This document shows positions 4,483 to 28,500 of a stretch of 64,000 nucleotides of DNA, in pieces. Each line of letters opens with the position of its first letter. Position 1 is the first letter of the stretch. The position numbers and the translations under genes are program-made. This DNA is from Nonomuraea sediminis (GTDB lineage Bacteria > Actinomycetota > Actinomycetes > Streptosporangiales > Streptosporangiaceae): positions 496,001 through 560,000 of the forward strand of contig NZ_JAHDTI010000003.1 in assembly GCF_018531495.1 (NCBI RefSeq), given 5' to 3'. The notes beneath the pieces are model-generated. The model was given only the letters and a program-made list of their open reading frames with translations. It was not told the origin of the DNA and did no database searches.

Positions 4483-5342
4483 TTCAGTCCCGTCATCGCG
4501 ATGCTGTTGACCAGGTAGCGCTGCAGCAGCGCGAACACCAGCAGGCACGGCACGACCGAGATGGCCGCCGAGGCCATCACCAGCGACAGCGGGTGCTCGT
4601 CGCCCTTCAGCGTGGTCAGCCCCACCGTGAGCGTCCGCAGCTCGTCGCTCTGCGCGATCACCAGCGGCCACAGGAAGTCGTTCCAGTGCCACAGGAACAC
4701 GAACACGCCAAGCGTGGCCAGGATCGGCTTGGTCAGCGGGATCACGATCTGCCAGTAGATGCGCCATTCGGAGGCGCCGTCGACCTTGGCCGCCTCGAAC
4801 AGCTCGTCCGGCAGGTCCCTGATGAACTGCCGCATCAGGAAGACCGCCTGCGAGTTGGCCAGCGTCGGCACGATCATCCCCCAGAACGTGTCGACGCCGT
4901 CCAGGTCCGACACGAGCACGAACATCGGGATGAGCAGGGCCTGGAAGGGCACCATCACGGTCGCCAGGAACGCCCACATGAGCGCGTCCCGCCCGGGGAA
5001 GCGCTTCTTGGCGAAGGCGTACCCCGCCATCGACGCGGTGAGCAGGATGATCACCACCGAGACCCCGGCGTAGATCAGCGAGTTCACCGTCCAGCCGAGG
5101 AACCCGGCCGCCGACAGCGTCTGCGCGAAGTTGTCGAACGTCAGCTGCTCGGGCCACTGGCGCGGCACGGTCGGCTTGCGCGGCGGCGACAGCGCCAGCA
5201 CCAGCATCACCAGGAACGGGCTGACCGTCAGCATCGACACCAGCCCGAGCAGCACGGTCAGCGGCCAGCGCCGTCCGGTACGGCGGGCCCCCGACCGCCC
5301 TGGCGCCACCCGCGTGACCGGCCGGGTGGCGGTGAGCGTCAT
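4479..5342 (-). CDS. Carbohydrate-type ABC transporter permease (MalG-like)
   Basis: A 287-residue inner-membrane permease with about six hydrophobic segments. The EAA loop reads EAAKVDGASEWRIYWQIVIP, the CUT1 permease signature that docks the ATPase. Start MTLTATRP is chosen from the ATGA overlap with the upstream permease stop; the N-terminus is Arg-rich and cytoplasmic. It pairs with the MalF-like permease. No ATPase gene lies in this operon, so the importer probably borrows a shared MsmK/UgpC-type ATPase, as many actinobacterial CUT1 systems do. Confidence 0.93.
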   Translation of the reverse strand: MTLTATRPVTRVAPGRSGARRTGRRWPLTVLLGLVSMLTVSPFLVMLVLALSPPRKPTVPRQWPEQLTFDNFAQTLSAAGFLGWTVNSLIYAGVSVVIILLTASMAGYAFAKKRFPGRDALMWAFLATVMVPFQALLIPMFVLVSDLDGVDTFWGMIVPTLANSQAVFLMRQFIRDLPDELFEAAKVDGASEWRIYWQIVIPLTKPILATLGVFVFLWHWNDFLWPLVIAQSDELRTLTVGLTTLKGDEHPLSLVMASAAISVVPCLLVFALLQRYLVNSIAMTGLK

Positions 5343-23934: not shown

Positions 23935-24030
23935 ATCCTCGCCCCGACGACAGGATCACAACACACGCGCCCACCACAACTACCAGGACCCGGCCACCCG
24001 GCACCCACCAACCGCAATCCCCACCCGCCC

Positions 24031-24430
24031 GCGCCGATCGCCAGGCCGTCGTGCACCCCGGTCGGTTAGGCCCTCCCCGATGCCGATGCCCAGGTCCTGG
24101 CCGTGCTGCACCCGCCGCCCGCAATCCCAGCCCGCCCACGCCGCCCGCGCCGATCGTCAGGCCGTCGAGCACCCCGGTCGGTTAGGCCCTCGCCGATGCC
24201 GATGCCAGCGCCTGGCCGTGCTGCACACACCGACCGCGGTCCCCGCCTGCTAGGGCCGCCCGTGCCTATCGCGGCCGTCGTGCACCCCGGCCAGTTGGGC
24301 TCTCCCCGATGCCGATGCCCAGGGGCCTGGCGGTGTTGCACCCGCCGACCGCGGTCCCTGCCCGCTAGGGCCGACCGGGCCGATCGCCAAGCCGTCGAGC
24401 ACCCCGGTCGGCAGCCCTGTCCCTATGCCG
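24031..24430. repeat. 115-116-bp degenerate tandem repeat, about 3.5 copies
   Basis: Units begin near 24031, 24147, 24262 and 24377 with a core like CGATCGCCAGGCCGTCG followed by GCACCCCGG, and later CCGATGCCGATGCCCAG. The unit length is not a multiple of three, so successive copies fall in different frames. The 3'-most copy runs into the MFS-like fragment from which the unit appears to derive. Confidence 0.75.
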
Positions 24431-24566
24431 ATCAGCACGAACGGCACCAGCCGCCCGGGCAGCGCGCTGTCGAGCCCGATCGTGACCAGCGGCAGCGTGC
24501 CGAGCCCGTTCACCTCCACCAGCACCACGCCGGGCGACCCTCCAGCCAGCCGTACCCGCTGCAGAG
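24377..24566 (-). pseudogene. Fragment resembling an MFS transporter
   Basis: Read on the minus strand this encodes VRLAGGSPGVVLV, then GLGTLPLV and FVLIGIGTGLPTGVLDGLAIG. The second part resembles the GxGxGLPtGvLDG region of DHA-type MFS transporters and the first resembles the NTvRLAG segment that normally follows it. The order is reversed, as expected if a tandem duplication kept parts of two copies. No start, stop or flanking helices remain. Identification rests on motif memory only. Confidence 0.4.
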
Positions 24567-24761
24567 GGCGGCAGCAGCGTGGGGAGAGTGAACACCGACA
24601 CCCCGTGATCTTGAGGGGAAAGGCGAGACAGGCCGTGGGAAACGTGAGGCGAGCCGTATCGGGTGGAGGGTGCTGACGCGGCGGAAGCGATGGCTGCGTG
24701 CCGGTGCTGGAGGCAGGGTGATCTGTCCCAAAGGGGCGCGCGGGTGCGTTTTGTGGCTGGC

Positions 24762-25631
24762 ATGATGTGCGCCATGTTCCGGGGGCGAAATGGGGGGCCA
24801 CGCCTGGCGGGTGTGGCGGGTGTTGTGGTTGTGCTGGTCACGGGGTGTACGGCCGGGCGGGCACAGAGTCCGCCTGCTGTGGAGGAGACGGAATCCGGGG
24901 CGCCCACGGCCTCGGCGTCGCGGCCTGCCGTACAGGGGCCACCCGGGGTACGGCCACGGCCCGGGGAGGTCGGGCGTGTTCAGTCGGGCAGTGGGCCGTT
25001 GCCGGTGATCAGCTCGATCCCGACCAAGCGGAAGGTGGTCTTCCTGACCATCGACGACGGGTGGGAGCAGGATCCCGGCTTCGTCAGGCAGGTGCGCGAG
25101 GAGCGGATCCCGATCACCGTGTTCGCGATGCGCGACGCCGTGGAGGCCAGGGGGAAGCCGGATCCCGCCGGGGGCGTGGGGCGGTACGTGGGCGCCGGTA
25201 AGTGGGGATATTTCCGGCAATTGCGTGATGCGGGCGCGCCGATCGAGGACCACACGCTTACCCATCCCAACCTGCGGCTGCTCGGGTACGACGCGCAACG
25301 GCGGGAGATCTGCGGCTCCGCGCAGGTCATCAGGAAGGAGATCGGGGTCAGGCCCACGCTTTTCAGGCCGCCGTTCGGCAACTACAACACCGACACGCTG
25401 CGTGCCGCCGCCACCTGCGGGATCAAGAAGGTGCTCCTCTGGACGGCCACGGTCCAGCCCGGCGGCAAGATCGCCTACCAGGTACCGGACAAGCGACTGC
25501 GGCCGGGAGATGTCCTCCTCATCCACTTCCGCCCACACCTGGCCGGAGACTTCCGCATCCTGGTCGACAAGATCCACCGCCGCGGCTTCGAACTGGGCAA
25601 CCTCCAGGCCTACCTGCACGCCATGCCCTAG
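24762..25631 (+). CDS. Secreted polysaccharide deacetylase (CE4 family) lipoprotein
   Basis: About 289 residues. The signal peptide has lipobox-like VLVTGC (VVVVLVTGCTAG), then a Pro/Ser/Gly-rich linker and a NodB domain. The CE4 motifs are FLTIDDGWEQ (catalytic Asp plus metal Asp), EDHTLTHPN (metal HxxxH), RPPFGNYN and VLLIHFRP. It probably removes acetyl groups from cell-wall or other polysaccharides outside the membrane. Start choice is uncertain among ATG 24762, 24765 and 24774 and GTG 24744, the last preceded by AAGGGG. Confidence 0.88.
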   Translation: MMCAMFRGRNGGPRLAGVAGVVVVLVTGCTAGRAQSPPAVEETESGAPTASASRPAVQGPPGVRPRPGEVGRVQSGSGPLPVISSIPTKRKVVFLTIDDGWEQDPGFVRQVREERIPITVFAMRDAVEARGKPDPAGGVGRYVGAGKWGYFRQLRDAGAPIEDHTLTHPNLRLLGYDAQRREICGSAQVIRKEIGVRPTLFRPPFGNYNTDTLRAAATCGIKKVLLWTATVQPGGKIAYQVPDKRLRPGDVLLIHFRPHLAGDFRILVDKIHRRGFELGNLQAYLHAMP

Positions 25632-25656
25632 AACCTGTAGGCCTGCGCGCCATGGT

Positions 25657-26361
25657 CTAGGAGGCGCCGGTGGCCTTCGATCGTAGGGTCTGCTTCTTGG
25701 CGCGGTTGCCGCAGGTGTCCATGGAGCACCACCGGCGGGTGCCCGGCCGTGACCCGTCGAGGAACAGGGCGGCGCAGCCCTCCCCCGCACACGCCCGCAC
25801 CCGCTCGATCGCCGGCGAAGTGACCAACTCCAGCGCGTCCCGCGCCACCAGGGCCAGCATCGCCGCGACGGGATCCTCGGCCGCCCACCGCAGCCGCCCG
25901 TCACCCCCGAGCCACGGCGCCGGCGCCGGTCGCGCAGCCGCCCGGTTCACCACGTCCCGCTCGCCCTGACCCGCCGCACGCCCGTCCCGCGCCGCTCGCA
26001 CCAGCGCGTTCACCGCCTCACGCAGTTCCCACGCCTCCTCCACCCGCACACCGGAGCTCCACCCAGCAGCCCCTGCACCACCCCGCACGACGGACCTTCC
26101 CGCCGCGTTACCCCGCACAACGGGCTCACCCCCACCGCCATCCCGCACAACGGGCTCACCCCCACTGACGTCCCGCACGGCGGGCCTTCCCTCGCCGGAA
26201 GCGTCTGCGGTGGGGGTCAGGGGGCCTGGGGAGAACTGGTGGGTCCACGCGGCGAGGGCCCTGACATCGGGCAGCTCCTCCACCTCGCCGGCTAGGCCGC
26301 GGCGGCGCAGCGTGCGGATGAAGTCCAGGCTCAGGCGGCCCGCCCCTTCGCGGAATTCCAT
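25657..26361 (-). CDS. CGNR zinc-finger protein (ABATE-like), probable transcription regulator
   Basis: About 234 residues. The C-terminus carries CAGEGCAALFLD followed by RRWCSMDTCGNRAKK, the CGNR treble-clef zinc finger (four Cys) of actinobacterial stress-type regulators. The N-terminal ABATE-like domain starts MEFREGAGRLSLDFIRTL. Between them lies a Gly/Val/Arg-rich linker made of four 10-residue repeats (VVRDGGGGEP-like) encoded by 30-bp DNA repeats. It is divergent from the MFS exporter across 75 bp with a large inverted repeat, so it probably controls that exporter. Confidence 0.85.
   Translation of the reverse strand: MEFREGAGRLSLDFIRTLRRRGLAGEVEELPDVRALAAWTHQFSPGPLTPTADASGEGRPAVRDVSGGEPVVRDGGGGEPVVRGNAAGRSVVRGGAGAAGWSSGVRVEEAWELREAVNALVRAARDGRAAGQGERDVVNRAAARPAPAPWLGGDGRLRWAAEDPVAAMLALVARDALELVTSPAIERVRACAGEGCAALFLDGSRPGTRRWCSMDTCGNRAKKQTLRSKATGAS
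26081..26200. repeat. In-frame 30-bp tandem repeat, 4 copies, inside the CGNR gene
   Basis: Copies start at 26081, 26111, 26141 and 26171 with the core CCCGCACAACGGGCTCACCC. The exact 30-bp period keeps the frame and yields a repeated VVRxxxGGEP-type linker. Confidence 0.88.
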
Positions 26362-26379
26362 GGTCCACACCCTACCCCG

Positions 26380-26425
26380 GGAACCGGTTTAACTGGTACC
26401 GTCCCGAACCAGTCAAACCGGTTCC
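26380..26425. promoter_or_regulatory. Large inverted repeat in the CGNR/MFS divergent promoter
   Basis: The 18-bp arms 26380-26397 (GGAACCGGTTTAACTGGT) and 26408-26425 pair at 17 of 18 positions around a 10-bp spacer. Each arm contains the palindrome AACCGGTT. The element lies 11 bp before the MFS GTG and 18 bp before the CGNR start, so it is a likely operator for both genes. Confidence 0.7.
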
Positions 26426-26436
26426 GAGGGGGAAGC

Positions 26437-27903
26437 GTGATTCTGATCCTGGCGATCGCCTGTGGGGTGGCCGTGGCCAACATCTACTTCCCGCAGGCCG
26501 TCAGCCCGCTGATCGCCGCGGGGCTCGGACTGCCCCCTGACGGCGCGGCGCTGGTGGTGACCGCCGCCCAGTTGGGTTACGCGGCCGGGCTGTTCCTGCT
26601 CGTACCGCTCGGCGACCGGGTGCCGCACCGGCGGCTGATCGTGACCTTGCTGGTGCTCACCGGGGCGGGGTTGCTGGTGGCGGGGTTCGCGCCGGGGCTG
26701 CCGATGCTGGTGGCGGCCAGCGCGGCGGTCGGCGTGACGACCGTGGTGCCGCAGATCATCATCCCGGTGGCCGCCGGGCTCGCGGGTGACGAACGCCGCG
26801 GCGCCGTCACCGGGACGCTGCTCAGCGGCCTGATCGGCGGCATACTCCTGGCCAGGACGTTCGGCGGCACGCTCGGCGAGTGGCTCGGCTGGCGCGCCCC
26901 CTACTGGGTGGCCGCCGCGATGGCCCTCACCCTCGCCGCCGTCCTGCGCGCCGCCCTCCCCCACCAACGAGCCAAGCCCGAACAGGACCGACACCCCCGA
27001 TCACCCGCCGAACCCGAACAGGGGCGACACCCCCGGTCGCACGCCGAACCCGAACAGGGGCGACACCCCCAATCGCACGCCCAACCCGAACAGGGGCGAC
27101 ACCCCCAATCGCACACCGAACCCGAACAGGGGCGACACCCCCAATCGCACACCGAACCCGAACAGGGGCGACACCCCCAATCGCACACCGAACCCGAACA
27201 GGGGCGACGCCCACGGTCGCCCGTCTCGGGTGGACAGAGGTGGCATCCGCGGTTGCTGGTTGAGCCCGTTCGGCTGTTGCTGGACGAGCCGGAGTTGCGT
27301 AGGTCGTGTCTCTACCAGGCGATGATGTTCGGCGGGTTCAGTGCCGCGTGGACGAGTCTGGCGCTCCTGGTCACCGGGCCCGTCTACGGGCTTGGCGCGC
27401 AGGCCGTGGGGCTGATCGCGCTGGTGGGCGCGGGCAGCATGGTGTCGGCGCCGATGGCCGGCAGGTGGGTGGATCGGGGTGGACCCGACCGCGTGAACCT
27501 GGTGTGCCTCCTCGGCGCCGTGGCGGCGGCGGCCGTCCTGCTGATCGGCGCGCGAGGCGGCGCGACTGGACTGGTGGGCCTGGGGGCGGGGATGCTGCTG
27601 CTCGACGTGGCGATGCAGTCGGGCCAGGTGGCCAACCAGGCGCGGATCTTCGCGCTCCGCCCCGAGGCGCGCGGCAGGCTGAACACGGCCTACATGACGT
27701 GCTCGTTCGCCGGCGGCAGCGCGGGGTCGTGGCTGGGCGTGCAGGCCTACACGCATCTGGGCTGGCCGGGTGTGTGCGCGCTGGTGGCCATCGCGGCCGG
27801 GATCGCGCTGCTCAGGTGGTGGCGAAGGTCGCCATCATCGCCGCGTCCTCGCCCAGCCGCGGCGCGGCGTCGACCCGATCGGCCACGTGCGGCAGGCCGT
27901 TGA
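26437..27903 (+). CDS. MFS transporter with repeat-expanded central loop
   Basis: A 488-residue MFS protein of the YgaY/PenT-like exporter type. Helices 1-6 lie within residues 1-170 (VANIYFPQAVSPLIAAGLGL, then PLGDRVPHRRLIV between helices 2 and 3) and helices 7-12 from about 290. The central cytoplasmic loop (residues about 176-270) is expanded by seven repeats of 12 residues, EPEQGRHPQSHT-like. The C-terminus beyond ALLRWWRR is Arg/Pro-rich and probably runs past the ancestral stop. The GTG start follows GAGGGGGAAGC. Likely drug or metabolite efflux under CGNR control. Confidence 0.85.
   Translation: MILILAIACGVAVANIYFPQAVSPLIAAGLGLPPDGAALVVTAAQLGYAAGLFLLVPLGDRVPHRRLIVTLLVLTGAGLLVAGFAPGLPMLVAASAAVGVTTVVPQIIIPVAAGLAGDERRGAVTGTLLSGLIGGILLARTFGGTLGEWLGWRAPYWVAAAMALTLAAVLRAALPHQRAKPEQDRHPRSPAEPEQGRHPRSHAEPEQGRHPQSHAQPEQGRHPQSHTEPEQGRHPQSHTEPEQGRHPQSHTEPEQGRRPRSPVSGGQRWHPRLLVEPVRLLLDEPELRRSCLYQAMMFGGFSAAWTSLALLVTGPVYGLGAQAVGLIALVGAGSMVSAPMAGRWVDRGGPDRVNLVCLLGAVAAAAVLLIGARGGATGLVGLGAGMLLLDVAMQSGQVANQARIFALRPEARGRLNTAYMTCSFAGGSAGSWLGVQAYTHLGWPGVCALVAIAAGIALLRWWRRSPSSPRPRPAAARRRPDRPRAAGR
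26977..27228. repeat. In-frame 36-bp minisatellite, 7 copies, in the MFS gene
   Basis: Copies start at 26977, 27013, 27049, 27085, 27121, 27157 and 27193, each opening CCCGAACAGGGGCGACACCC and ending AATCGCACACCGAA or a close variant. The period is exactly 36 bp with no spacer. Central copies are nearly identical and outer ones more divergent, the usual signature of recent slippage or unequal exchange. Confidence 0.95.
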
Positions 27904-27935
27904 TCAGCCACCTGCCGGAGCCGTGCGGCCGAACC
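27812..27935 (-). pseudogene. C-terminal gene fragment of unknown origin, overlapping the MFS 3' end
   Basis: On the minus strand this encodes GRWLINGLPHVADRVDAAP followed by RLGEDAAMMATFATT and a stop at 27812-27814. It reads like a genuine folded-protein C-terminus, but a TGA interrupts the frame just upstream (near 27970) while a neighbouring frame continues with protein-like sequence (MRLARVERLDPARAVGARE). This suggests a frameshifted remnant. Family not recognised with certainty. Confidence 0.35.
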
Positions 27936-28034
27936 GCCGCTCCCTCGCGCCCACGGCACGGGCCGGATCAAGCCGCTCGACCCTGGCCAGCCGCATGGGG
28001 ACCCGGGAACCTGCCGGCCACCCTGCGCTTGCCT

Positions 28035-28215
28035 TGAAGCGCGTCACCAGGGTCGTCGTCCGACCCGCGCGCGCCCCTGAAGCGGCTCACCAGGGCCGCC
28101 GGCCAACCCGCGCGCGCCCCTGAAGCGCGTCACCTGGCCTGTCGGCCGACCCGCGCGTGCTCTTGAAGCGCGTCACCTGGGCTGTGTCGGCCGCCCTGTG
28201 CGTGGCCCTGAAGCG
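28035..28215. repeat. 43-bp tandem repeat, about 5 copies
   Basis: The core TGAAGCGCGTCACC recurs at 28035, 28078, 28121, 28164 and 28209 (periods 43, 43, 43 and 45), followed by GGCCGACCCGCGCG-like sequence. The period is not a multiple of three and no conserved frame is evident. Confidence 0.85.
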
Positions 28216-28352
28216 CATCCCCGCCCGCCGCCCAGCGTGTTACGCATGGCGACCTCGCCACCCGACCGCACCCCGGGAAGCTGACGACGACGCTCCCCCG
28301 CCGAGATCTGGATCCCGGCGGGCGTCACCGGGCGCTCGAGCAGCCGCCGTTC

Positions 28353-28500
28353 GACCCGATCCACGTGTACGGCAGGCCGAAGCGCCGACCCGATCCGCGT
28401 GTACGGCAAGCCGAAGCACCGACCCGATCCGCGTGTACGGCAAGCCGGAACGCCAACCCGGTCTGCATGCACGGCAGGCCGAAGCGCCGGCCCGTAGCGC
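28353..28500. repeat. 34-bp tandem repeat, about 4.5 copies
   Basis: GACCCGATCC followed by GCGTGTACGGCAAGCCGAAGC repeats from 28353, 28387, 28421, 28455 and 28489. The copies are contiguous, with no spacers. The GTACGGC element recurs in other intergenic stretches of the window. Confidence 0.85.

Follow-up and report, generated by a model that had tools for sequence, protein, structure and literature searches.

Background

Transporters of the major facilitator superfamily (MFS) have been altered experimentally in the loop that joins their two halves. LacY is described as tolerating the loss of five residues from this loop, and as inactive in transport once 12 or 20 are deleted; the loop of TetA(B) is said in the same source to behave much as in LacY (PMC4579554). 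For CaMdr1p, most loop deletions and alanine replacements are reported to abolish function, so that tolerance of the loop is, on that account, not general across the MFS superfamily (PMC4148622). Changes of protein length that leave the frame intact are described in Mycobacterium tuberculosis, where 17 of 25 intragenic structural variants of pe/ppe genes are in frame, a bias that the authors, in the part of their report bearing on it, credit to mechanism and not to selection (PMC12817950).

Here we describe a tandem array in the linker between TM6 and TM7 of an MFS transporter of Nonomuraea sediminis. Our literature search found nothing on a tandem repeat in an MFS central loop, and we claim no absence from the literature. 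We are fairly confident that the array is an intragenic minisatellite, which arose in a permissive linker by slippage or unequal recombination and is tolerated because it is in frame. The place is unusual, but the process is probably an ordinary one that involves no new mechanism.

Results and discussion

The window, i.e. the whole stretch of 64,000 nucleotides that was analysed, belongs to a 1.25-Mb contig (C33) of a 12.09-Mb genome. It contains an intact transporter gene (positions 26437 to 27903, plus strand) with a GTG start and 488 codons for amino acids. The MFS_1 profile (PF07690, E-value = 1.2e-47) matches both halves of the protein in two stretches, the best covering residues 7 to 430, in agreement with the family named in the earlier note. 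An AlphaFold2 model built with 39 sequences (mean pLDDT 81.6, pTM 0.79) exhibits the MFS fold, with two helical bundles (residues 2-173 and 272-464) and a linker between them, the cytoplasmic side of which we infer from the family. Most of both halves have a pLDDT above 90. Residues 194-265 fall below 50, and the array is predicted to be disordered. DSSP fuses adjacent helices in the model, and the TM helices were therefore left uncounted.

The structure matches of the model are MFS carriers, the top PDB match being the DHA1 antiporter SotB, and the nearest solved chain by sequence profile is EmrD. An NCBIfam search of the transporter reached no cut-off. Motif C of DHA1 antiporters, located in TM5, reads G-x8-G-x3-GP-x2-GG. 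The corresponding residues here (G126-x8-G135-x3-A139-R140-x2-G143-G144) keep the spacing and carry AR instead of GP, so that the motif is incomplete; G126, G135, R140 and G144 are invariant in the homologue alignment. The protein is likely a putative exporter.

Seven units of 36 bp stand head to tail from position 26977 to 27228 (plus strand), starting at 26977, 27013, 27049, 27085, 27121, 27157 and 27193, each translating into a PEQGRHPQSHTE-like sequence. Their constant period, divisible by three, and the lack of any indel make this an in-frame minisatellite. Tandem Repeats Finder (TRF) delimits it at 26977-27212 (period 36, 6.6 copies, 94% matches, no indels, score 388). The coordinates and the perfect register given by the earlier note were thus borne out for all seven units; the about 84 residues it proposed are exactly 84, in frame, and both the model and the homologue alignment locate them in the loop between the two halves, where it had placed them. 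Its description of the central copies as almost identical can be sharpened: copies 4 to 6 (27085 to 27192, plus strand) are fully identical. Copies 1, 2, 3 and 7 differ from these at 6, 3, 2 and 10 positions, respectively, the first and the last copies being the most diverged of the seven. As the unit equals 12 codons, every step changes the length by 12 residues and keeps the frame. A frameshift off-switch is impossible, and the array is not a phase-variable contingency locus of the frame-switching kind.

The copy number is that of the assembly. An assembly error, the true array being shorter or longer, could be suspected from the identical copies, with a longest exact repeat of 90 bp within the array, and from the draft state of the assembly (43 contigs). 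We hold it to be quite improbable, since the distinct outer copies anchor the array, and an error of this kind would alter the copy number and not the existence of the array. Reads of common length would span a repeat of 90 bp.

The length of the linker was measured between query residues 175 and 278 in 110 loci (80 from named genomes and 30 others including the own genome), chosen by similarity to the window's transporter with duplicates retained; eight of them gave no pair of halves and were left out of the lengths. The linker has 102 residues here. It has 17 residues in 81 of the 101 measured homologues and 16 to 20 in 95 of them, confirming the short loop that the earlier note had proposed to look for in homologues. 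The values of 13 (L022) and -7 (L024) cannot be relied on, as the matched C-half pieces begin about 105-113 residues beyond the linker, in L024 also in another frame. The same note had held that an equal copy number in distant relatives would refute its reading; the array was found in none of the 101 measured homologues, with eight loci unmeasurable. The sum 102 = 17 + 1 + 84 leaves the native linker complete, with the array simply added next to it.

Nearer relatives, compared with one genome per species, give the same picture. Near DNA matches to the C-half occur in four of 54 genomes of the genus, the own genome included, and the other three matches all lack the array, with linkers of 17 (G024), 42 (G015) and 17 aa (G043). 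The last of these loci shares 1,300 identical bases with that of Nonomuraea aurantiaca (L116).

Long linkers were found in four of the 101 homologues, with 65 (L018), 62 (L041), 48 (L042) and 42 residues (L013), all differing in sequence from the array. Tandem repeats overlap three of the four, with periods of 24 (L018), 42 (L041) and 27 (L042); L013 exhibits just a 14-bp match in two copies. L041 and L042 come from sister Planobispora species, and their lengthening may be one shared event. Among the loci examined, the linker seems to have been lengthened several times over at one place, in Nonomuraea and Planobispora.

These four long linkers, together with the identical central copies, which suggest a recent change, could point to a selected length-tuning locus, where a strain-variable copy number would adjust insertion, turnover or transport kinetics like other bacterial VNTRs. 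That long deletions abolish transport in LacY and TetA(B) also indicates that loop length matters (PMC4579554). We regard such a locus as unlikely. The effects described in that source concern shortened and not lengthened loops, the other long linkers differ in sequence, and the differences among the copies match the non-selected expectation. The last two observations also speak against a sequence-specific role of the array. The seven copies exhibit 14 distinct changes, 9 non-synonymous and 5 synonymous, for a non-synonymous fraction of 0.74 expected in the absence of selection. There is no sign of purifying selection among the copies, which fits neutral evolution, with the low power of 14 changes.

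The composition of the array (11 His, 12 Glu and 12 Gln per 84 residues) raises the alternative that this His/Glu-rich cytoplasmic loop has a function of its own, perhaps in buffering metal or as a docking site. Histidine-rich loops are known in ZIP and CDF transporters. This alternative appears highly improbable to us, given that the other long linkers differ in make-up, that residues change from copy to copy, and that the structure and profile searches place drug exporters and amine carriers at the top rather than metal carriers. At third codon positions, the array has a GC content of 0.68, lower than the 0.94 and 0.86 of the two halves, and glutamate is encoded by GAA in 12 of 12 cases in the array, against 1/2 and 0/4 in the halves. 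Both biases fit the copying of one arbitrary stretch of DNA.

A decayed eighth unit (GGQRWHPRLLVE, 27229 to 27264, plus strand), absent from the earlier note's list, follows the array in register. It is identical to copy 2 at 21 of 36 positions, a level reached by 0.10% of the 127,246 other 36-mers of the window (both strands). Codon shuffling gives p = 0.00001, or 0.00015 with matches permitted at any in-frame position of the array; these figures are somewhat favourable, since the downstream flank was picked by eye. Compared with the central unit, the eighth unit exhibits 18 differences, of which 13 are transitions. The upstream flank of the array has no outstanding likeness to the unit (16/36, reached by 10% of 36-mers). 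In the homologue alignment, the conserved QRYPxLLAxxLRLL stands where the eighth unit lies. Its register, and its location at the QRYPxLL site of the native linker, suggest that the native linker probably seeded the array, which is the simplest reading.

Of four runs of the same seed test in the Planobispora homologues, one reached significance: L041 gives p = 0.0018 with 24 bp and 0.13 with 36 bp, and L042 gives 0.17 with both. A broader proposal would make the TM6-TM7 linker a recurrent self-seeded expansion site in Streptosporangiaceae, its native codons being repeatedly amplified as a copy-number dial on the transporter. We consider this very unlikely.

Our preferred account, the minisatellite in a permissive linker, would run as follows. 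The first step would have been the tandem duplication of 36 bp from the native TM6-TM7 linker, a stretch that is now at 27229-27264. Replication slippage or unequal recombination may then have amplified it to seven further copies, in 36-bp steps each keeping the reading frame. The linker would act as a disordered tether on the cytoplasmic side, and beyond a minimum its exact length seems of little weight. The longer protein would be tolerated for these two reasons, the intact frame and the apparent unimportance of linker length above that minimum. Such slippage in a tolerant loop is probably near-neutral.

Two other origins were considered. In the 12.09-Mb genome, the search for another full copy of the unit returned a single full match, the next best being 24 bp at an E-value of 0.06, which leads us to reject the idea that the unit is dispersed or of mobile origin. 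Folding of the first four units as single-stranded DNA lends no support to hairpin-driven slippage: they form no better structure than shuffled sequences on either strand (z = -0.29 and -0.72).

Tandem arrays are common on this contig. Counting those with a TRF score of at least 100 and a period of at least 10, there are 78 (6.2 per 100 kb), so that the array at 26977-27228, the eighth of them in rank, is one of many. Their periods are divisible by three in 43 of 78 cases (p = 9e-5 against one third). Elsewhere in the genome, 400 kb contain 9 arrays (2.25 per 100 kb), array density thus differing between genome regions. Samples from the same genus contain 11 arrays in 200 kb (G024), 4 in 100 kb (G015) and 10 in 100 kb (G010), by which this genome is not exceptional. 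A non-random sample of 39 Streptomyces loci around homologues (311 kb) contains 5 arrays (1.6 per 100 kb). The densest 4.5 kb of the contig is at positions 24025-28494 of the window, with five arrays (periods 115, 30, 36, 43 and 34). Two of these, 43 bp × 4.7 (28015-28216) and 34 bp × 4.2 (28352-28494), lie between the genes for the MFS transporter and cytochrome bd subunit I.

The genome also harbours a short iterated sequence. The 11-mer GTACGGCGGGC occurs 1,109 times in it, against 80 for its reversed control (e.g. at window positions 5278, 23525, 30112 and 39644), with little further consensus in its flanks. This count is the highest of the 54 genomes of the genus, followed by 784 in G003 and 54-454 in the other 52. 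GTACGGCGGGC is a lineage-variable iterated motif.

Upstream of the transporter, a divergent gene (25657 to 26370, minus strand) encodes a 237-aa regulator with both an ABATE domain (PF07336, 1.1e-17) and a CGNR zinc finger (PF11706, 2.5e-17). The in-frame repeat ascribed to this gene by the earlier note was recovered as 30 bp × 2.5 (26112 to 26185, minus strand). It lies inside an insert mostly missing from 14 aligned homologues, two of which have about six residues there. Inspected by eye, the units of this repeat and the sequence flanking them (CCGCACAACGGGC, CCGCACGGCGGGC) look similar to the iterated 11-mer GTACGGCGGGC.

The region separating the regulator and transporter genes contains paired GAACCGGTTTAACYGGTAC-like sites (26381 to 26424): GAACCGGTTTAACTGGTAC at 26381-26399 on the plus strand and GAACCGGTTTGACTGGTTC at 26406-26424 on the minus strand. 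Within two mismatches, GAACCGGTTTAACYGGTAC occurs twice in the 12.09-Mb genome, both times here; the reversed control gives 0. A relative of the regulator lies upstream of the transporter in 16 of the 80 named loci. A GAACCGGTTTAACYGGTAC site with up to four mismatches accompanies it in 14 of these 16 (the exceptions being L052 and L091), and is found in 3 of the 64 named loci that lack the regulator, each time at four mismatches. The strict paired pattern was found in one of 54 genomes of the genus, N. aurantiaca having a diverged pair. Near the transporters of the closest relatives, G024 and G015, no match to the regulator was found even at an E-value of 10, so that the gene pair is not a genus-wide feature.

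From these sequence patterns, the paired GAACCGGTTTAACYGGTAC site is a good candidate for the operator of the ABATE/CGNR regulator. The lack of any other site within two mismatches in the genome suggests that the regulator may control mainly this gene pair. A 2009 paper on an ABATE/CGNR structure proposes DNA binding and, in its text bearing on this point, names no target site (PMC2954205). Among the matches listed in our literature search, nothing was found on this ABATE/CGNR operator, and again we do not claim its absence. The lengthened transporter would still work, probably as a proton-coupled exporter under the predicted control of the divergent regulator.

Conclusions

The array offers a natural experiment on the tolerable length of the tether between MFS halves, with its probable seed still visible alongside. 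Should its length differ among strains, it would serve directly as a marker and to test the effects of tether length. The neighbouring candidate operator is possibly more useful than the array.

The transporter resembles the DHA1 drug:H+ antiporters in fold (SotB) and profile (EmrD), and departs from them by staying short of the NCBIfam cut-off and by the AR in its motif C. The VNTRs of M. tuberculosis ppe genes, as described in PMC12817950, are likewise tandem units that alter protein length with the frame intact. Their copy number is reported to vary among sequenced genomes, whereas the comparison here covers one genome per species, and their hosts are ppe genes, whereas here the repeat sits in the linker of a transporter. 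In LacY, TetA(B) and CaMdr1p, the loop concerned is likewise that between TM6 and TM7, joining the halves, and the loop of TetA(B) is likewise predicted to be disordered, according to the accounts cited above (PMC4579554, PMC4148622). In contrast to those studies, which as described shorten or substitute the loop, the linker of the Nonomuraea transporter has become about six times longer through tandem copying.
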